Of a DNA stretch of 64,000 nt, positions 3,941 through 53,828 are shown piece after piece. The notes below the pieces were generated by a model that saw only the letters and a program-made list of their open reading frames with translations, searched no databases and was not told the DNA's origin. Origin of the DNA: Salinisphaera sp. (GTDB lineage Bacteria; Pseudomonadota; Gammaproteobacteria; Nevskiales; Salinisphaeraceae); the NCBI GenBank assembly GCA_027858915.1, contig JAQIBT010000110.1, positions 62,001 through 126,000 on the forward strand. The letters run 5' to 3'. Both the position numbers and the translations under genes were made by a program. Position 1 is the first letter of the stretch. Each line of letters begins with the position of its first letter.

Positions 3941-5014
3941 CTACTCGTGCTCCCCTGGCGCACGCGCCTGCACGATTTCACGCAGGACGCTGGTTGCAAA
4001 CGCGCCCGATGGTAACCAGAAACTCAGCACCAGATCGTCTTCTTGAAAAGACCAGCTAAAATCACGCGGCAGCAACCTCGTGGCACGTCGCGCACTATCG
4101 ACGCCCGCTGCCGCGAGGCCGGCAATCAGCTCGGCGTATTGCGCCCCGATATCAGCCTCCAGGTCGGCTGCCGCCTCGCTGGTTGCAGGCAACTGAGGCT
4201 TACCGGGCAACAGCGCCGCCGGATGCAGATCATGCCGATCCATGCGCTGGGCCAGCGCGTCCTCGCTCTGGCCGGCGTCTGCCCAGGCGAAAACGCTCTG
4301 GCTGCCGTCCAGCATGCAGACATCTCCGACCAACGGCCGGTCCCAATTGCCGGCGCGCACGCGTGCGTCGACCATCGCGTTGAAAATCAGCGAGCGAGCC
4401 GCCGACAAGGCAAAACCGCGGCGATTACGCGATAATCGCCGGCCCGCAAACAAGGCGCGCGATAGCGTGATATTTCGACCGTCGCGGCCAAACCGCTGTG
4501 CCCCGAAGTAATTGGGTACGCCGCACGCGCGGACCCGCTCAAGATCGGCGCCAAGGGCCTCTCGGTTATCCTGGAACGATAGATCGCGAACGCGCAGGGT
4601 AAACGTGTTGCCACGATGAGCGCCGCGTTTGAGCTTGCGGCCGTGGCGTCGTGCCGTCAGCACGCGGATATCGTCTCGGTCCGGCCACTCGGGCAACGGC
4701 GACTTGATCGGCCACACCAGCGAAAACCACTGCTGGGTTAACGCATGACGGTCCTTGAGACCGGCATAGCCAATATGGCGCGGATGTACGCCGGTCAGGC
4801 CAGACACAATCTCCAGCGCACGGGGCGTGGTGAGACCGGTCTTCTCCACCCACAGCCAGAGATGCTCGCCGGCATCGTCGAGCGCGATATTGCAGTCTTC
4901 CTCGACGCAGAAGTCCTCGGGCCGCGCGCGCAGCGTGCCGTATGTGGGCGGTGCCTCACCACGCGCGTAAGCCAAACGATCGACGTCGACAACGTCGCCT
5001 GATAACAAGCACAT
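3941..5014 (-). CDS. truD: tRNA pseudouridine(13) synthase
   Basis: Makes pseudouridine 13 in tRNA-Glu and some other RNAs. Seen: the catalytic motif GYAGLKDRHA with the nucleophile Asp at residue 88, the conserved NYFGAQRFG block, and SNF-like aromatic positions through the TRUD insertion region. Length 357 residues matches the family. The gene keeps its conserved place between ftsB and surE, but the two genes normally found between ftsB and truD (ispD and ispF) are absent: only 133 bases separate the truD ATG from the ftsB stop. Confidence 0.95.
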   Translation of the reverse strand: MCLLSGDVVDVDRLAYARGEAPPTYGTLRARPEDFCVEEDCNIALDDAGEHLWLWVEKTGLTTPRALEIVSGLTGVHPRHIGYAGLKDRHALTQQWFSLVWPIKSPLPEWPDRDDIRVLTARRHGRKLKRGAHRGNTFTLRVRDLSFQDNREALGADLERVRACGVPNYFGAQRFGRDGRNITLSRALFAGRRLSRNRRGFALSAARSLIFNAMVDARVRAGNWDRPLVGDVCMLDGSQSVFAWADAGQSEDALAQRMDRHDLHPAALLPGKPQLPATSEAAADLEADIGAQYAELIAGLAAAGVDSARRATRLLPRDFSWSFQEDDLVLSFWLPSGAFATSVLREIVQARAPGEHE

Positions 5015-5147
5015 GTCTGAAAACTCAGTCCGGGTATTGCATACAACACAAGAACGTCACGTCAGTCATCGGCTACCGCCCATGCGGGCAACAACGATGT
5101 AGCCGCAGCCGGCAGAGGAAAAGGCAGCGACTTACGACGCCAGTCGA

Positions 5148-5456
5148 TCAGTTCGCCGAAGCCTGGGCAGCGGGCCGGGACTTGCCATCAAGCGTGAGGA
5201 AGAAAGTCTCGTCGGGTTTGACCATGCCCATCTCTGACCGCGCCCGACCTTCGGTCGCCAGGGCGCCGGATTTGAGGTCGTCAATCTGGACCTGCATGGC
5301 CGCATTGCGCGTCCTGTCCTTCGCGTTCTGCAGATGCAGCGTATCGCGGAGCTGGGCGATCCGGTGCACTTGCGCCAGACTGCCGTCGCCCACCCACAGC
5401 CGATACTGCAGGCCCGCGAACACGACCAACAAGGCGATGACGGCGAGCTTGAACAT
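5148..5456 (-). CDS. ftsB: Cell division protein FtsB
   Basis: Small bitopic inner-membrane protein of the FtsQ-FtsB-FtsL divisome complex. Seen: one N-terminal transmembrane helix (FKLAVIALLVVFAGLQYRLW, about residues 2-21), the family motif LWVGDGSL just after it, then a polar helical region suited to a coiled coil with FtsL, and the MGMVKPDETFF block. I chose the ATG at 5456 because the hydrophobic helix then begins at residue 2, as in relatives; an open upstream extension to 5537 is not conserved. It lies 67 bases downstream of eno, its conserved neighbour. Confidence 0.93.
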   Translation of the reverse strand: MFKLAVIALLVVFAGLQYRLWVGDGSLAQVHRIAQLRDTLHLQNAKDRTRNAAMQVQIDDLKSGALATEGRARSEMGMVKPDETFFLTLDGKSRPAAQASAN

Positions 5457-20162: not shown

Positions 20163-22508
20163 TCAGAAGCTGGTGCCGAAAGAGAATTGAAAGCGATTGA
20201 CCTTGTCGCCCGGCTGCTTGTTTATATAGGGCGCATAGCTGACGCGCAGCAGCCCGAAGAACGGTGTGAACCAGTCGAAAGCCACGCCCGCAGAGCTGTC
20301 GAGTTTGGAAGCGTTGAAATCCTGAGCGCGGGCGTATACCCGGCCGATATCGTAGAACAGGCTGAAACGGGTGGTTTTGTTGTCAGACTTCAGGAAAGTC
20401 GGAATCACCAGATCAGACTGCAGAGTAGTGAGGAATTGGCCACCGTAGGGATTGTTGAAGGAATCACGCGGGCCGACGCCGCCGTTGCGAAAACCACGCA
20501 CCGACTGCGCGCCGCCGGCGAAGAAATTATCGTAGGGCGGCACGTCAGTCCCCTTGCCCCAGATGGCAGTCTGGCCAATCCGGCCGGTCATGTTCAGCAC
20601 GACCTTGTCCGAGAGTTTGGGTATCCACGACCCAACTCGGAAATAGCGCTGTTGTTTTATGCTGGCGTTGTAATATTCAAGATCGGAGCCCGGCCCCTTG
20701 ATATTGAAGTTGACGCTGGTCAGCGTGCCGCGGGTCGCGAAGAACGTCTTGTTGCGCGTATCGCGCGTCCATCCCGTGCGCAGTTCATAAGTCGTGGCGC
20801 TTGCGCCATTGTCACGTACAAAACGTGCCAATTGATCCGAGACCACCTGTTGGCCATTTCTGTTGACCGGCGACGTGATCTTGTTTGTCGCGACACCAAT
20901 ACCCGCGGTGATATTCGAGTACTCGGTGATCGGGAAGTTGAAGGTCATCGCCCCGCCGATCGAGTCCAGATTGAAACTGGAGCCGTAGCGAGTCAAAGAG
21001 TTGGTCTTGCGATAGAAGGCGGAAAAAGTACGCGATACCCCCTCATCCGTGAAGTATGGATTGGTAAAGCTGCCGCTGATGCTCTTGGCATAGGAGTTGG
21101 TCTGGGCCGATATCTCCACGGTATCGCCGGTACCGCGGAAGTTGGTGTGCTTCACGGTTCCGTTGATCAGAAAGCCCTCGGCGTTGGAAAAACCAACGCC
21201 GAACTGGATCTGGCCGGCGGCCCGCTCGGTCAAGCCGTAATCGACGTCCACCAGATCATCCGACCCGGGCACCTTCTTGGTATTGACCGTCACGTCCTGA
21301 ATGAACGGCAGCCGTGCGAGGCGGGTGCGCGAACGTTGCACGGCCCGTCGTGAATAAGGCGCGCCTTCGAACTGACGCATTTCGCGGCGAAGGGTCTCAT
21401 CGTTGGTCTTGTCATTGCCGCTAAAGACGATCTGGCGAACATAAGTCCGCTTGCCGGGGTCGATGAAAAACGTCAGATCCACCGTCTTGGACTTTTCGTC
21501 TACCTTGGTCAGCGGGTCAACGTTGGCGAACGCATAGCCGAAGTCGGCCAGACCCGAACTGATGGCATCGGAGGACGCGTCCACATCGGCGCGCGAGAAT
21601 ACTTCCCCGGCCTTGACCTTCACCAACCGTTGGAGCGTAGCTTCGGGAACAATCATGTCACCGGCAAACTTGTAGTCGGCAATTTTGTATTGCGCCCCCT
21701 CGTTGACGTTGACGGTGAGAAAAACGTTGCGCTTGTCCGGCGACAGCGATACCTGCACCGACGTCACGTTGAAACGGATGTAACCACGGTTCTTGTAGAA
21801 GGAGTTGAGCGACTCGAGGTCGCCGACCAGTTTTTCACGCGAGTACTTGTCCGGACTCTTCCAGAAGGTCAATGGATGTGTATAGAACGGACGATGCGAC
21901 TTCAGCTTGAATACACTCTTGAGCTGTTCATCGGAGAACTTGTGGTTGCCGATGATATTGATGTCCTTGATCGAGGCAATTGGGCCTTCCTTGACCTTGA
22001 TATCGATCGCGACCCGATTGTTGCCGAGGTTGGTCACCTTGGTGTCGATCTTCACGCTGTAATAGCCATTGGCGTAGTACTGCCGCCGGAGTTCCTGCTG
22101 TAGCGAATCGAGCAGGGATCGCTTGTAGAGCTCGCCCTGCGCCAGCCCCTGATCCTTAAGTGCTTTTTTCAGCTTCTTGCCGCCGAGCGCCTTGTTGCCC
22201 TCGAGCTTGAAACGCGCGATCTCGGGCCGTTCACTGACGTGCACGATGAGCGTGTTGCCACGACGATCGAGTGAGACATTCTCGAACAAGCCCGTGTCGT
22301 AGAGTGCCCGGATCGATTGCTGAGCGCGCGCCTCGGTCATGCGATCGCCGACGCTCACCGGCAGATAGGTAAGTACGGTGCCCGGCTCAAGCCGCTGTAC
22401 ACCCTGCACCTGAATGTTCGCGATCTGGAAGTCGTACGACTGCGCCCAGGCACCCGCGGCATACATCAACATCAGCGCACAGGCCGTACGCTTGAAAAAA
22501 CCGGACAT
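20163..22508 (-). CDS. bamA: Outer membrane protein assembly factor BamA
   Basis: Central beta-barrel of the BAM complex, which inserts outer-membrane proteins. Seen: signal peptide ending AGAWA, five POTRA repeats (about residues 25-430; e.g. IQVQGVQRLEPGTV), then a 16-strand barrel with the conserved VRGFRNGG loop 6 motif and a C-terminal Phe (FQFSFGTSF) as the outer-membrane sorting signal. Length 781 residues is normal. The apparent ribosome binding site AGAGG, nine bases before the ATG, lies inside the end of an inverted-repeat element that separates bamA from rseP. Confidence 0.98.
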   Translation of the reverse strand: MSGFFKRTACALMLMYAAGAWAQSYDFQIANIQVQGVQRLEPGTVLTYLPVSVGDRMTEARAQQSIRALYDTGLFENVSLDRRGNTLIVHVSERPEIARFKLEGNKALGGKKLKKALKDQGLAQGELYKRSLLDSLQQELRRQYYANGYYSVKIDTKVTNLGNNRVAIDIKVKEGPIASIKDINIIGNHKFSDEQLKSVFKLKSHRPFYTHPLTFWKSPDKYSREKLVGDLESLNSFYKNRGYIRFNVTSVQVSLSPDKRNVFLTVNVNEGAQYKIADYKFAGDMIVPEATLQRLVKVKAGEVFSRADVDASSDAISSGLADFGYAFANVDPLTKVDEKSKTVDLTFFIDPGKRTYVRQIVFSGNDKTNDETLRREMRQFEGAPYSRRAVQRSRTRLARLPFIQDVTVNTKKVPGSDDLVDVDYGLTERAAGQIQFGVGFSNAEGFLINGTVKHTNFRGTGDTVEISAQTNSYAKSISGSFTNPYFTDEGVSRTFSAFYRKTNSLTRYGSSFNLDSIGGAMTFNFPITEYSNITAGIGVATNKITSPVNRNGQQVVSDQLARFVRDNGASATTYELRTGWTRDTRNKTFFATRGTLTSVNFNIKGPGSDLEYYNASIKQQRYFRVGSWIPKLSDKVVLNMTGRIGQTAIWGKGTDVPPYDNFFAGGAQSVRGFRNGGVGPRDSFNNPYGGQFLTTLQSDLVIPTFLKSDNKTTRFSLFYDIGRVYARAQDFNASKLDSSAGVAFDWFTPFFGLLRVSYAPYINKQPGDKVNRFQFSFGTSF

Positions 22509-22953: not shown

Positions 22954-24315
22954 CTACCCGAGCAAGCGCAGGATATCGTTGTAGAAAGCAACGGTCATCA
23001 ACATCAGCAGAGCTACCATCCCTAACTGTTGTCCCGCCGACTGCACGGCCTCCGGCAGAGGCCGGCCCCGTATCCATTCGATCGCATAATACAGAAGATG
23101 CCCCCCGTCTAACACCGGAATGGGCAGAAGGTTCAGCACCGCCAGACTCACACTGATCAACGCCATGAAACTCAAAAAAGCGACCAGACCAAGCTGAGCG
23201 GTCTGGCCGGCAAAGGTCGCGATCTGGATGGGACCACTGACGTTATGCCAAGAAACCTGGCCGATCACCATGCGCCCCATCAGGCGCACCGTGAGCGCCG
23301 ACAGCTCCCAGGTCTTGCCCAGTGCCTGCGGAATAGCTGCCAGCGGGCCGTATTGGCGTACGGTTCGCATCGCGTCCCAGGCCGCCGAATCTACCGTGAT
23401 CTGCGCGCCCAGATGACCGATCGACTGGCCGCTGGCGCTCTTGCGGGTAGCCAGTGTTGCCGTCAGTTCGTGCTGTTGAGCGTTGCGCATCACCGTTAGA
23501 TGGACCCTTTGACCTGGGCGAGCACGGATAGCCTTGACCAGCGCCTGAGGCGAAGCCATCGCCTGACCGTCGATAGAGACCACCTCATCGCCGCTCTGCA
23601 GCCCGGCCGCCGCGGCAGGCGAGCCAGGCAAGACCTGGCCGACGAGTGGCGTGGCCGGCGGTTGGTAGAGATCCATACCGAGCCGGGCGAACAGCGCATC
23701 GGGATCCGCTGGCGCTGAACTCAGGTCGAGGGTGAGATGACGCGGCGCTGCATCGCCATGAGTCACTTCCATCGATACCCGCTCGTGATCGAGCGCGCGT
23801 TCGATCAGCGCCAGCCGCAACTGCTGCCAGTCCTGGATTGACGAACCGCCCAGCGAACGAACCTGATCCTGTGATTGCACGCCGGCCTCGGCGGCCAGGC
23901 TACCCGATGGCGGAGCCTCGAGAACAGGCTTGATACCTGGCACGCCCAGCATGAATACCAGCCAGTAGACAAGAATCGCGAACAGAATATTCACACCCGG
24001 GCCCGCAATCACAATCGCGATTCGTCGCAGCGGATGCACCCGATTGAAGGCATAGGGCAGGTCGGCTTCGGCCACCGGCGCTTCGCGCTCGTCGAGCATC
24101 TTGACGTAGCCGCCCAACGGTATCGCCGACAGCCAGTATTCAATGCCGGTCCTGCGGCTGGTCCAGCCAGCTATCCGGCTGCCAAAGCCGATCGAATACC
24201 GCAGCACGCGCACGCCCATGCGCCGGGCGACCCAGTAATGACCATATTCGTGGATGGCCACGAGCACACCGATGGACACGATGAAAGCCGCAGCCGAAAT
24301 CAGCCATTGCGTCAT
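22954..24315 (-). CDS. rseP: Site-2 intramembrane metalloprotease RseP
   Basis: Inner-membrane zinc protease that cuts RseA within the membrane to release sigma-E under envelope stress. Seen: HEYGH (residues 22-26, zinc ligands and catalytic Glu) in the first transmembrane helix, two PDZ domains (about 110-290; VLPGSPAAAAGLQSGD in the second), and the PIPVLDGGHLL motif supplying the third zinc ligand near the C-terminus. I chose the ATG at 24315; an upstream GTG at 24354 would add 13 residues. Length 453 residues is normal. Its usual upstream neighbour dxr is absent. Confidence 0.95.
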   Translation of the reverse strand: MTQWLISAAAFIVSIGVLVAIHEYGHYWVARRMGVRVLRYSIGFGSRIAGWTSRRTGIEYWLSAIPLGGYVKMLDEREAPVAEADLPYAFNRVHPLRRIAIVIAGPGVNILFAILVYWLVFMLGVPGIKPVLEAPPSGSLAAEAGVQSQDQVRSLGGSSIQDWQQLRLALIERALDHERVSMEVTHGDAAPRHLTLDLSSAPADPDALFARLGMDLYQPPATPLVGQVLPGSPAAAAGLQSGDEVVSIDGQAMASPQALVKAIRARPGQRVHLTVMRNAQQHELTATLATRKSASGQSIGHLGAQITVDSAAWDAMRTVRQYGPLAAIPQALGKTWELSALTVRLMGRMVIGQVSWHNVSGPIQIATFAGQTAQLGLVAFLSFMALISVSLAVLNLLPIPVLDGGHLLYYAIEWIRGRPLPEAVQSAGQQLGMVALLMLMTVAFYNDILRLLG

Positions 24316-24369
24316 GGAAACGCCAACTCCGCCGTGTTGAAGAAAGCCACCCACGCGGGGGAGCCGACA

Positions 24370-25200
24370 TTACGTCTGCGCAGGCAACCAGTGCAGCCCC
24401 AGAACAAACCACGGTGCCGCTGCGATCAGGCTGTCCAGCCGATCCAGAACACCGCCATGGCCGGGAAACAGCTTGCCACTGTCCTTGAGTCCGGCCGAAC
24501 GCTTGAACATGCTGATCGTCAGATCACCCACGATCGAGATGATCGCAACCCATACGCCAAGTGCCATCATGCCAAGTGTACGCGACACGGTGTAATCAAG
24601 CGCAAACGCGGCAATGCCCGCTACCAGAAGTGCCGCGAGCGCGCCGCCGATCGCGCCTTCCACGGTCTTGCCTGGACTCACATTCGGCGCCAGCTTGTGA
24701 CGGCCCAGCGTGCGGCCGGCGGCATAGGCCCCGGTATCGGCTGCCCATACGAGAAAGCACAACACCAGCACGAGCAGCGGCCCGTCGTCGGACTGGTGCA
24801 GATAGGCCACCGACGCCACCGGCGCAGCCAGCAGGATCGCACCCACCGGACCGGCCACCGCCGACTGGCCCAGAGTACCGGCCCAGTCGCGAGGAAACCG
24901 CGCGATCCATAGAATCGCAGTCAGCCATAGCAAGGCCGCCAGGCCGATCAATACGCTTTCGCTACCGGGTCCTACTTCGCTGTGGCGCCAGAGAGCCACC
25001 AGAATCGACAGCAGGAAGACACTGGCCATGAGTATCAGTCGCCCGGGCAATCCCAGCCGCATCAGCGCGCCCCACTCCCAGGCGCCACATAACATCAGCG
25101 CCAACACGAGAGCTGCCATCAGCGGGGTTGGCAGGAACAGGATGGCGGCGATCGCCAGCGGCAGCGCCACCAGCGCCGTGATGATCCGAGTCAACAGCAC
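24370..25200 (-). CDS. cdsA: Phosphatidate cytidylyltransferase
   Basis: Makes CDP-diacylglycerol, precursor of membrane phospholipids. A polytopic membrane protein with eight or so hydrophobic segments, and the family signature near the C-terminus: FKRSAGLKDSGKLFPGHGG followed by VLDRLDS. No ATG lies at the proper start. I chose the GTG at 25200, just after the uppS stop; a TTG at 25236 inside uppS is the other option. Downstream is rseP with no dxr between, unlike the conserved order. Confidence 0.93.
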   Translation of the reverse strand: MLLTRIITALVALPLAIAAILFLPTPLMAALVLALMLCGAWEWGALMRLGLPGRLILMASVFLLSILVALWRHSEVGPGSESVLIGLAALLWLTAILWIARFPRDWAGTLGQSAVAGPVGAILLAAPVASVAYLHQSDDGPLLVLVLCFLVWAADTGAYAAGRTLGRHKLAPNVSPGKTVEGAIGGALAALLVAGIAAFALDYTVSRTLGMMALGVWVAIISIVGDLTISMFKRSAGLKDSGKLFPGHGGVLDRLDSLIAAAPWFVLGLHWLPAQT

Positions 25201-25204
25201 CAGA

Positions 25205-25921
25205 TCAACCCCGGGCAGCCGACGGCAGACCACCAAAACGCCGATCGCGCTGCTCGTACCATGTCAGCGAATCGCGAAAACTGGCCGCGTCAAAATCGGG
25301 CCACAACACATCGCAGAAATGCAGTTCGCTGTAGGCGAGGTCCCAGAGAAGAAAATTGCTGATACGCCGCTCGCCGCCTGTCCGCACGAACAGATCCGGC
25401 TGCCGGAAGCCGGCCAGACTGGTATATTCGGCCAGCATCGACTCGTCGATGTCTGCCGGATTTCGACGGCCGGCAACGCAGTCGTCGGCCAGACGGCGCG
25501 CGGCCTGAACAATGTCCCAACGCCCACCGTAATCCACCGCAACGATAAGCTTGAGGCCGTTATTGCCGGCCGTCTGCTGTTCCGCCGCCGCCATATCGCG
25601 GCTGAGGGCGGCCGAAAACCGGCTGCGATCGCCCACAAAATGCATACGCACCTTATTGGCGTGCAGCGCATTCACTTCACGGCGGATGGTACGACGGAGC
25701 AGATCCATCAGTAGCCGAACCTCGGCGCTCGGGCGATTCCAGTTTTCACTCGAAAACGCGAACAGCGTGAGTACTTCCACGCCGGTCTCGGACGCGCACT
25801 CGATGACTTCACGCACTTTCTTCGCGCCCGCACGATGGCCGGCGGCACGCGGCAGTCCCCGACGGCTGGCCCAGCGGCCGTTGCCGTCCATGATGATGGC
25901 GACGTGGTGCGGTAACGGCAT
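25205..25921 (-). CDS. uppS: Undecaprenyl diphosphate synthase (cis-prenyltransferase)
   Basis: Extends farnesyl diphosphate with isopentenyl diphosphate to the C55 lipid carrier for peptidoglycan and O-antigen. Seen: HVAIIMDGNGRWA with catalytic Asp12, the GHRAGAKKVRE block, LFAFSSENWNRP, and the C-terminal IRTGGE-like motif (VRTGGERRISNFLLW) and dimer-interface region. Length 238 residues is normal. It needs isoprenoid units although three MEP-pathway genes are missing from this neighbourhood. Confidence 0.97.
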   Translation of the reverse strand: MPLPHHVAIIMDGNGRWASRRGLPRAAGHRAGAKKVREVIECASETGVEVLTLFAFSSENWNRPSAEVRLLMDLLRRTIRREVNALHANKVRMHFVGDRSRFSAALSRDMAAAEQQTAGNNGLKLIVAVDYGGRWDIVQAARRLADDCVAGRRNPADIDESMLAEYTSLAGFRQPDLFVRTGGERRISNFLLWDLAYSELHFCDVLWPDFDAASFRDSLTWYEQRDRRFGGLPSAARG

Positions 25922-45733: not shown

Positions 45734-46609
45734 TCATCGAACCGCCAGATCGAGCACGATCCCGACGAACACGATACCGCCGACGATATTGTGCTGCATG
45801 AAGGCCTTGAAACAGGATTCACGGTCGCGATGACGCGTAAGCCATTGATGATAGAACGCTATGCCAATAGCAACCGCCAGACCCAGGGCATAGAAAACAC
45901 CGAGCCCGAACGCCAGGCCCACGCCGATCAGCAGCGCAAAATGTACGATCTGGCAAACCCCGATCATCGCCCGATCATAGCGCCCCCACAGAATCGCCGT
46001 GGACTTGACGCCGATCTCCAGATCATCGTCTCGATCCACCATCGCATAGAACGTGTCGTAGACCAGGGCCCAGATCAGCGTGGCGGCGAACAAGAGCCAG
46101 CCACCTGCGGGCACGTGCGCGCTTTGGGCGGCAAAGGCCATGGGTATGGCCCAACCAAACGCCGCCCCAAGAAACATCTGCGGCCAGTGGGTCGCGCGCT
46201 TGGTGAACGGGTACAGCACCGCGAGCCCAACGCCAACCACGGACAAACCGATAGTCAGCCAGTTCAGGGTCAATACCAGCGCAAACGACAACAGGCAGAG
46301 AACGGCGAACAATACCAGCGCTTCGCGGCTGGAAATCTCTCCGGTCGCGAGCGGTCGAGCCCGGGTACGCTGGACGTGACCGTCGATCTTGCGGTCGGCG
46401 AAGTCATTGATCACGCAGCCGGCCGAGCGCATCAGCACCGCACCCGCGACAAACACGAACAACACCCACGGATCAGGCAGGCCGCCGGCGGCCAGCCAGA
46501 GCGCCCACAACATCGGCCACAACACCAGGAAAATGCCGATTGGCTTGTTCAGCCGCGTCAGTCGCAGATAGATATCCGCGCGCGAACCGCGCCCTGCAAT
46601 GGTGCTCAT
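45734..46609 (-). CDS. ubiA: 4-hydroxybenzoate polyprenyltransferase
   Basis: Integral membrane enzyme that prenylates 4-hydroxybenzoate in ubiquinone synthesis. Seen: RLNKPIGIFLVLWPMLWAL, first Asp-rich motif NDFADRKIDGHVQRT, second YDTFYAMVDRDDDLEIGVKS, and about eight or nine transmembrane helices. The ATG at 46609 (MSTIAGRG) was chosen over an upstream extension. About 291 residues. Its prenyl donor would come from ispB further along the window. ubiC is not beside it. Confidence 0.95.
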   Translation of the reverse strand: MSTIAGRGSRADIYLRLTRLNKPIGIFLVLWPMLWALWLAAGGLPDPWVLFVFVAGAVLMRSAGCVINDFADRKIDGHVQRTRARPLATGEISSREALVLFAVLCLLSFALVLTLNWLTIGLSVVGVGLAVLYPFTKRATHWPQMFLGAAFGWAIPMAFAAQSAHVPAGGWLLFAATLIWALVYDTFYAMVDRDDDLEIGVKSTAILWGRYDRAMIGVCQIVHFALLIGVGLAFGLGVFYALGLAVAIGIAFYHQWLTRHRDRESCFKAFMQHNIVGGIVFVGIVLDLAVR

Positions 46610-46781
46610 CTGTGGTGTCTCCAGGCGGCAAGGATCGCCGCCACGCATATCAAACCGTGAAACCGATCTGTTGACTGCATGGGCCAGCTACCCACAACAA
46701 AGCGCAAACGGTACCATGCACCAAATTCAGACGGCAGCGATGCGTTGATCGCATCCAGCACAGCACGTCATTGGAGCCTCC

Positions 46782-52859: not shown

Positions 52860-53828
52860 ATGAGCATCCAGCCGCTGTTCCAGCCGGTCGAAGACGATAT
52901 GCGCGCAGTCGACGCGCTGATCCGGCAACGGCTGAGTTCCGACGTCGTCCTGATCAACACGCTCGGCGAGTACATTATTGCAAGCGGTGGCAAGCGATTG
53001 CGCCCTGCACTGGTGCTGCTCGCAGCGCGCGCTGCCGGCTACCAGGGCGATCAGCATCACGTATTGGCGACCGTGATTGAATTCATTCATACCGCCACGC
53101 TGCTGCACGATGATGTGGTCGACGAGTCGAGCCTGCGGCGGGGTCGCGAGACCGCGAATAACGTCTGGGGCAACGACGCCAGTGTTCTAACCGGTGACTT
53201 CCTCTACTCGCGCGCTTTTCAGATGATGGTCGAGCTTGATTCGTTCGAGGTCATGAAGGTGCTCGCCGATGCCACCAACCGCATCGCCGAGGGCGAAGTC
53301 ATGCAGCTGATGTACAGCCATGATCCGGATCTGGCCGAGTCCGATTATCTGGAAGTCGTGGACCGCAAGACCGCCAGCCTGTTTTCAGCCGGCTGCCGAC
53401 TGGCCGCAGTACTGGCCGGCCGCACGTCCTCCGAATGCGACGCCATGGCAGCCTATGGTCGCCACCTCGGGATTGCCTTCCAGGTCACCGACGACGCGCT
53501 GGACTATGGCCGGGGTGACGAAAGCTACGGCAAGAATCTCGGCGACGATCTCGCCGAAGGCAAGACCACCCTGCCGCTGATCTGTGCGCTGTCGCGACTT
53601 TCCGCCGACACAGCCGCGCCGCTACGCCAGGCCATTCGCGATGGCGATATCACCGCTCTGGATTCGATCATGAAATCGATTGAATCCACCGATGCGATGG
53701 CATACACTTGCGGCCGCGCTGAAGAGGAAGCCGCTATAGCGATCTCCTCTCTGGATATATTCGAGGACTCCGATGCCAAGGCGGCATTAGCTTCTCTCGC
53801 CGAATTCGCGGTTCGGCGCCGATACTGA
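52860..53828 (+). CDS. ispB: Long-chain polyprenyl (octaprenyl) diphosphate synthase
   Basis: Trans-prenyltransferase making the ubiquinone side chain. Seen: GGKRLRPAL at 43-51, first aspartate-rich motif LLHDDVVDES (Asp84, 85, 88), second TDDALDYG, and GDFLYSRAF. Length 322 residues is normal. Product chain length (C40 or C45) cannot be read off. Divergent from rplU, its conserved neighbour; a tRNA-Pro gene begins two bases after its stop. Confidence 0.96.
   Translation: MSIQPLFQPVEDDMRAVDALIRQRLSSDVVLINTLGEYIIASGGKRLRPALVLLAARAAGYQGDQHHVLATVIEFIHTATLLHDDVVDESSLRRGRETANNVWGNDASVLTGDFLYSRAFQMMVELDSFEVMKVLADATNRIAEGEVMQLMYSHDPDLAESDYLEVVDRKTASLFSAGCRLAAVLAGRTSSECDAMAAYGRHLGIAFQVTDDALDYGRGDESYGKNLGDDLAEGKTTLPLICALSRLSADTAAPLRQAIRDGDITALDSIMKSIESTDAMAYTCGRAEEEAAIAISSLDIFEDSDAKAALASLAEFAVRRRY

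Follow-up and report, generated by a model that had tools for sequence, protein, structure and literature searches.

Loss of the MEP pathway and its probable replacement by a horizontally acquired mevalonate cluster in the Salinisphaeraceae

Results and discussion

Two closed-up sites of MEP genes

The window analysed here, a stretch of 64,000 nucleotides from the marine bacterium Salinisphaera, carries on its minus strand the genes uppS, cdsA, rseP and a bamA-like gene in that order (Table 1). The end of cdsA (24370) and the ATG of rseP (24315) are separated by 54 bases that contain no gene, in agreement with an earlier note on this DNA, which had put the gap at about 54 bases and read it as the conserved site from which dxr is missing. 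The locus was fetched from 20 members of the order that carry dxr (tblastn with the UppS, CdsA and RseP of the window), and in all of them dxr lies exactly between cdsA and rseP; its absence here is therefore a real, lineage-specific loss from a conserved site. The note had also counted ispD and ispF as lost, from a second conserved site, and truD does follow ftsB after 133 bases with neither gene in between. The consumers of isoprenoids that it described as remaining (uppS, ispB and ubiA) were all found in the window.

Table 1. Features of the window that bear on the loss of MEP genes
Feature	Position	Strand	Basis
cdsA-rseP intergenic gap, site of the missing dxr	24316..24369		ORF positions and synteny of relatives
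rseP (site-2 protease), directly after cdsA	22954..24315	-	NCBIfam TIGR00054, 368.8 bits against a cut-off of 147.55
cdsA (phosphatidate cytidylyltransferase)	24370..25236	-	PRK11624, E 1.4e-48, below the curated cut-off; conserved operon position
uppS, isoprenoid consumer kept	25205..25921	-	TIGR00055, 281 bits, above cut-off
bamA-like gene	20163..22508	-	named from sequence and position
ftsB-truD gap of 133 bases, the other conserved site, lacking ispD and ispF	5015..5147		ORFs; identities of FtsB and TruD; ispF absent genome-wide in the family
ftsB	5148..5456	-	PRK00888, E 5.1e-24
truD	3941..5014	-	TIGR00094, above cut-off
ispB-type polyprenyl diphosphate synthase, IPP consumer kept	52860..53828	+	PRK10888, E 2.6e-112
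ubiA, isoprenoid consumer kept	45734..46648	-	TIGR01474, 337.8 bits, above cut-off

MEP genes are absent throughout the family

Bacteria usually make the precursors of isoprenoids by the MEP pathway. We looked for its genes in 41 genomes, comprising that of the window (Salinisphaera, 4.33 Mb in 169 contigs, 99.6% complete), 13 others of the same genus, three others of the same family and 24 others of the same order. None of the 17 Salinisphaeraceae genomes, the window's own included, has dxr (PF02670), while outside the family 23 of the 24 order members searched carry it. IspG, ispH and ispF were likewise absent from all 17 family genomes, where the best match for dxs (PF13292) was no better than E 1.5e-5. 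Every family genome encodes exactly three GHMP kinases, and since the only three of the window's genome are the kinases of the mevalonate cluster described below, ispE is absent as well; ispD is absent at its conserved ftsB-truD site. The proposal that this lineage dropped the MEP pathway thus held genome-wide for dxr, dxs, ispE, ispF, ispG and ispH, and a search for the pattern that would speak against it, a complete set of MEP genes elsewhere with no mevalonate genes, found the opposite.

It is very improbable that only dxr was moved or replaced, for example by DXR-II/DRL, with the MEP pathway still running. DXR-II is known in some bacteria (reviewed in PMC10663253) and would be missed by PF02670, but ispE, ispF, ispG, ispH and dxs are missing too and all the genes for a mevalonate route were found, which refutes this reading for any pathway that needs IspG/IspH. 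Gaps in the assembly are less credible still: although the window's genome lies in 169 contigs, the window itself displays the closed-up junction, and the same six genes are absent from 17 of 17 family genomes, one of which (G007) consists of a single contig and so refutes this explanation.

The mevalonate cluster

The earlier note had suggested that isopentenyl diphosphate is made by the mevalonate route, from genes outside the window, and a full cluster was indeed found on another contig of the same genome (C163, locus L011, 10.1–16.8 kb). Its minus strand carries a type 1 IPP isomerase (IDI), a fusion of HMG-CoA reductase (HMGR) with mevalonate kinase (MVK), a phosphomevalonate kinase (PMK) and a diphosphomevalonate decarboxylase (MVD), with an HMG-CoA synthase (HMGS) divergent from them. 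One entry in the note's list of mevalonate genes needs correcting: the isomerase is of type 1 (Nudix; TIGR02150, 147 bits against a cut-off of 106) rather than fni.

The fusion joins a class II HMG-CoA reductase and a mevalonate kinase in one protein of 768 aa, with both halves above cut-off (TIGR00532, 420 bits; TIGR00549, 236 bits). Across seven aligned fusions the reductase motifs ENV.G, DAMGANLVNT, HNKG, GNDWRA and GHM.LHARSVA are kept, as are the kinase motifs GKI..LGEH.VVYG, GLG.SAA and KLTGGGGGG. The halves match solved enzymes across their length, namely Pseudomonas mevalonii/Delftia-type class II HMGR (PDB 1qax, 6dio) and mevalonate kinases (6mde, 2x7i); the likeness holds half by half, whereas none of these chains spans both halves, which are here joined within a biosynthetic operon. 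MVD scores 285 bits with TIGR01240 (cut-off 171), while the phosphomevalonate decarboxylase model falls far below its own cut-off. HMGS (498 aa) is above cut-off for PF01154 and PF08540 and below it for the NCBIfam equivalog (162 against 360 bits); its catalytic Glu, Cys and His are intact (motifs GTES, ACLGG and HRPY) and its best PDB matches are HMGS structures. For PMK the best family is TIGR01220 (E 2.2e-39, 135.5 bits, below the cut-off of 165.7), and the gene is operonic with intact GHMP kinase motifs. Because HMGS and PMK lie below the curated NCBIfam cut-offs, it is their motifs, their place in the gene order and the logic of the pathway on which we base their assignment. The cluster thus appears complete in gene content, and the pathway is predicted from these sequences to be active.

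The same genes occur in three further family genomes (G003, G014 and G016) and in G007, where they lie inside the one contig of 4.14 Mb that makes up the assembly. A contaminant contig was considered as the source of the cluster and ruled out, since the same layout is found inside that single contig. The cluster of G015 (C43, locus L054) has HMGR-MVK, PMK, MVD and IDI, and a match to HMGS was found nowhere in this 99% complete genome, which might obtain HMG-CoA from leucine breakdown or from an unrecognised synthase. In the window's genome, genes named from sequence as glycogen phosphorylase-, synthase- and GlgC-like directly adjoin the cluster (L011:4651-9919); at the other loci that were inspected, no glgC homologue was seen close to the mevalonate genes.

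In the proposed pathway acetyl-CoA would be converted to acetoacetyl-CoA and by HMGS to HMG-CoA, which would pass through mevalonate to mevalonate 5-phosphate on the one two-domain HMGR-MVK protein. PMK would then yield diphosphomevalonate, MVD would yield IPP and the type 1 isomerase (IDI-1) DMAPP.

Origin and insertion of the cluster

The fusion protein of the window's genome shows 81–86% identity to its nearest named relatives, which are Salinisphaera. Fused HMGR-MVK is widespread, occurring in Dyella, Rhodanobacter, Nevskia, Wenzhouxiangella, Cryobacterium and Calditrichota, and the usual gene order with it is MVD-PMK-fusion-IDI. In a tree of 87 fusions the Salinisphaeraceae and the Microbacteriaceae (Actinomycetota) form one clade (SH-aLRT 100), and a single clade of all Proteobacteria is rejected (p-AU 7e-5, six long-branched rows left out). 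Cryobacterium and its kin share the divergent layout of HMGS with Salinisphaera and are closer to it in HMGS (62–67% identity, against 51–56% for Nevskia and most other lineages) and in PMK (44–57%, against mostly 26–37% for Nevskia and most others). As the fusion groups with Microbacteriaceae and apart from other Gammaproteobacteria, movement of the cluster between phyla is well supported by these comparisons, with the Salinisphaeraceae as its presumed recipient. The Microbacteriaceae clusters (Cryobacterium, Frigoribacterium) also have the order MVD-PMK-(HMGR-MVK) and the highest identity outside the family; they differ in that no idi1 homologue lies beside the cluster and that dxs is present in both isolates searched.

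The cluster adjoins tas in both Salinisphaera and genus g3. The genes around it there run thiSG-trmB(-prk)-tas, with the PRK-like gene included in g3. The arrangement mutY-asmA-thiSG-trmB-prk-tas is shared with MEP-using members of the order, which makes the tas neighbourhood the likely insertion point of the cluster. This applies to Salinisphaera and g3 only; genus g2 has the cluster at another place, away from the thiSG locus.

We propose that a complete mevalonate cluster, with a fusion closest to that of Microbacteriaceae, reached the ancestor of the Salinisphaeraceae through horizontal transfer. The cluster would have supplied IPP and DMAPP, the MEP genes (dxs, dxr, ispE, ispF, ispG and ispH, and ispD at its site) would subsequently have been lost, and the cdsA-rseP and ftsB-truD sites would have closed with that loss. 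We are highly confident that the family lost the MEP pathway and has a horizontally acquired mevalonate cluster in its place; the activity of the pathway, the direction of transfer and the order of the losses are the parts of this account that we infer.

Nevskia, of the same order, appears from its sequences to have switched to mevalonate separately and with a different version. The one genome of the order outside the family that has no dxr (G028) can be assigned to Nevskia from its fusion protein, which lies at almost zero tree distance from that of Nevskia sp. nzgw585; it has also lost ispF, ispG and ispH. Like those of the Salinisphaeraceae, the Nevskia and Dyella clusters have the fused HMGR-MVK and the order MVD-PMK-fusion-IDI, but they occupy a separate branch of the tree, and dxs is kept.

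Legionella and Coxiella are known to have lost MEP genes and to carry mevalonate genes while their relatives use MEP, and the Salinisphaeraceae resemble them in the replacement of one pathway by the other. They are unlike Legionella in that the set appears complete with HMGS and PMK, HMGR and MVK are fused, and dxs is lost although pdxJ and thiG stay. A 2026 survey found a recognisable phosphomevalonate kinase in none of the Legionella analysed, and HMG-CoA synthase missing in most (PMC13001223), so that the analogy drawn in the earlier note is weaker than it was put there. HMGS and PMK of the Salinisphaera type fall below curated cut-offs, and this could explain the same two gaps in surveys of Legionella. 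In the open-licence literature Salinisphaera and mevalonate were found together only incidentally and an HMGR-MVK fusion in Gammaproteobacteria was not found, which is a weak negative.

PdxJ and thiG are kept without dxs

DXS makes 1-deoxyxylulose 5-phosphate (DXP), which has three uses, in the MEP pathway, by PdxJ for vitamin B6 and by ThiG for the thiazole of thiamine; to our knowledge it is the only standard source of DXP. That DXP is diverted towards thiamin and pyridoxal is also described in PMC13001223. Both pdxJ and thiG are present in 17 of 17 family genomes, and of the alignment columns that do not vary among E. coli and the relatives with dxs, 75 of 93 in PdxJ and 78 of 97 in ThiG are kept in every one of 16 family genomes. 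The two genes are under purifying selection (median omega approximately 0.20 for pdxJ and 0.11 for thiG, from pairs with dS < 1.5), and their maintenance without dxs implies a DXS-independent source of DXP in the Salinisphaeraceae. In the window's genome thiG is part of a ThiS-ThiG fusion of 332 aa (C163, L012:2062-3060); larger thiG open frames suggest the same fusion in most of the family, and several relatives in the order have thiG alone.

We surveyed dxs in 48 named genomes carrying the HMGR-MVK fusion. It is clearly present in Dyella, most Nevskia, Rhodanobacter, Litchfieldella, Marinobacter gelidimuriae and Cryobacterium, and was not found in five genomes of the Salinisphaera clade, three Wenzhouxiangella isolates and several MAGs. 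Outside Salinisphaera, pdxJ is present in 14 of the 17 fusion genomes without dxs, the Wenzhouxiangella isolates included. The dxs of G028 (C5:594912-595643), Dyella and Nevskia matches DXP_synthase_N in two pieces with about 25–45 profile positions missing; this shortened DXS variant occurs in many mevalonate-fusion genomes and also in G017, where dxr is kept.

One reading of these patterns is that PdxJ and ThiG are vestigial or act on another substrate, so that DXP is not needed. Eighteen of the 93 PdxJ columns and 19 of the 97 ThiG columns do vary in the family, yet we think this unlikely given the presence of both genes in every family genome, their low omega, and the recurrence in Wenzhouxiangella of dxs loss with pdxJ kept. 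A divergent thiamine-diphosphate DXS missed by the profile is somewhat less probable again. The weak PF13292 matches, at E 1.5e-5 or worse, would be compatible with it, but a Transket_pyr search of six family genomes gave just 1–6 proteins in each, and the nine family sequences checked were seven transketolases, one 2-oxoglutarate dehydrogenase E1 and one pyruvate dehydrogenase E1 beta. In the window's genome, moreover, the weak matches adjoin Transket_pyr genes of E1 beta size. In G016 (2.0 Mb, 97% complete) the same search gave a 2-oxoglutarate dehydrogenase E1 only, and no transketolase.

Two candidate proteins were also set aside. The Tas-type aldo-keto reductase encoded beside HMGS was considered as a YajO-like source of DXP. 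Its gene was identified as tas by NF007912 (above cut-off), and as tas adjoins thiSG-trmB-prk in dxs-bearing relatives too, its place is ancestral and the argument from association falls. One 760-aa Transket_pyr protein from Wenzhouxiangella was checked, and it resembles a 2-oxoacid dehydrogenase in which E1 alpha and E1 beta are fused.

A further possibility, to which we give somewhat less than an even chance, is that the Salinisphaeraceae and, independently, Wenzhouxiangella make the DXP for vitamins B6 and B1 by a dedicated and as yet unrecognised enzyme other than DXS. A 2023 survey (PMC10663253) listed 181 species in which Dxs is the only MEP gene missing, and concluded that there is probably an unknown alternative to it. 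Those species are alike in having a demand for DXP with no recognisable Dxs; in the Salinisphaeraceae, however, the demand would come from vitamins B1 and B6 only, with isoprenoids supplied from mevalonate. We found nothing in the open-licence literature that joins thiG and pdxJ with mevalonate or with DXP synthase, again a weak negative.

Conclusion

A whole gammaproteobacterial family appears to have exchanged an essential pathway, and one can see where the old genes were lost, which cluster was gained, what surrounds it and what it is most closely related to. The fused HMGR-MVK is a candidate for a natural two-step channel and would be useful for engineering. The absence of dxs while pdxJ and thiG stay goes beyond what the earlier note had raised and is a sharper puzzle, and the loss of dxs together with the retention of these two genes makes the question of a Dxs alternative testable. 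Because DXP would be needed only for vitamins in the Salinisphaeraceae, the family is a cleaner place in which to seek such an alternative; if a dedicated DXP enzyme does exist, the supply of isoprenoids would be independent of it, and the enzyme may therefore be open to discovery.
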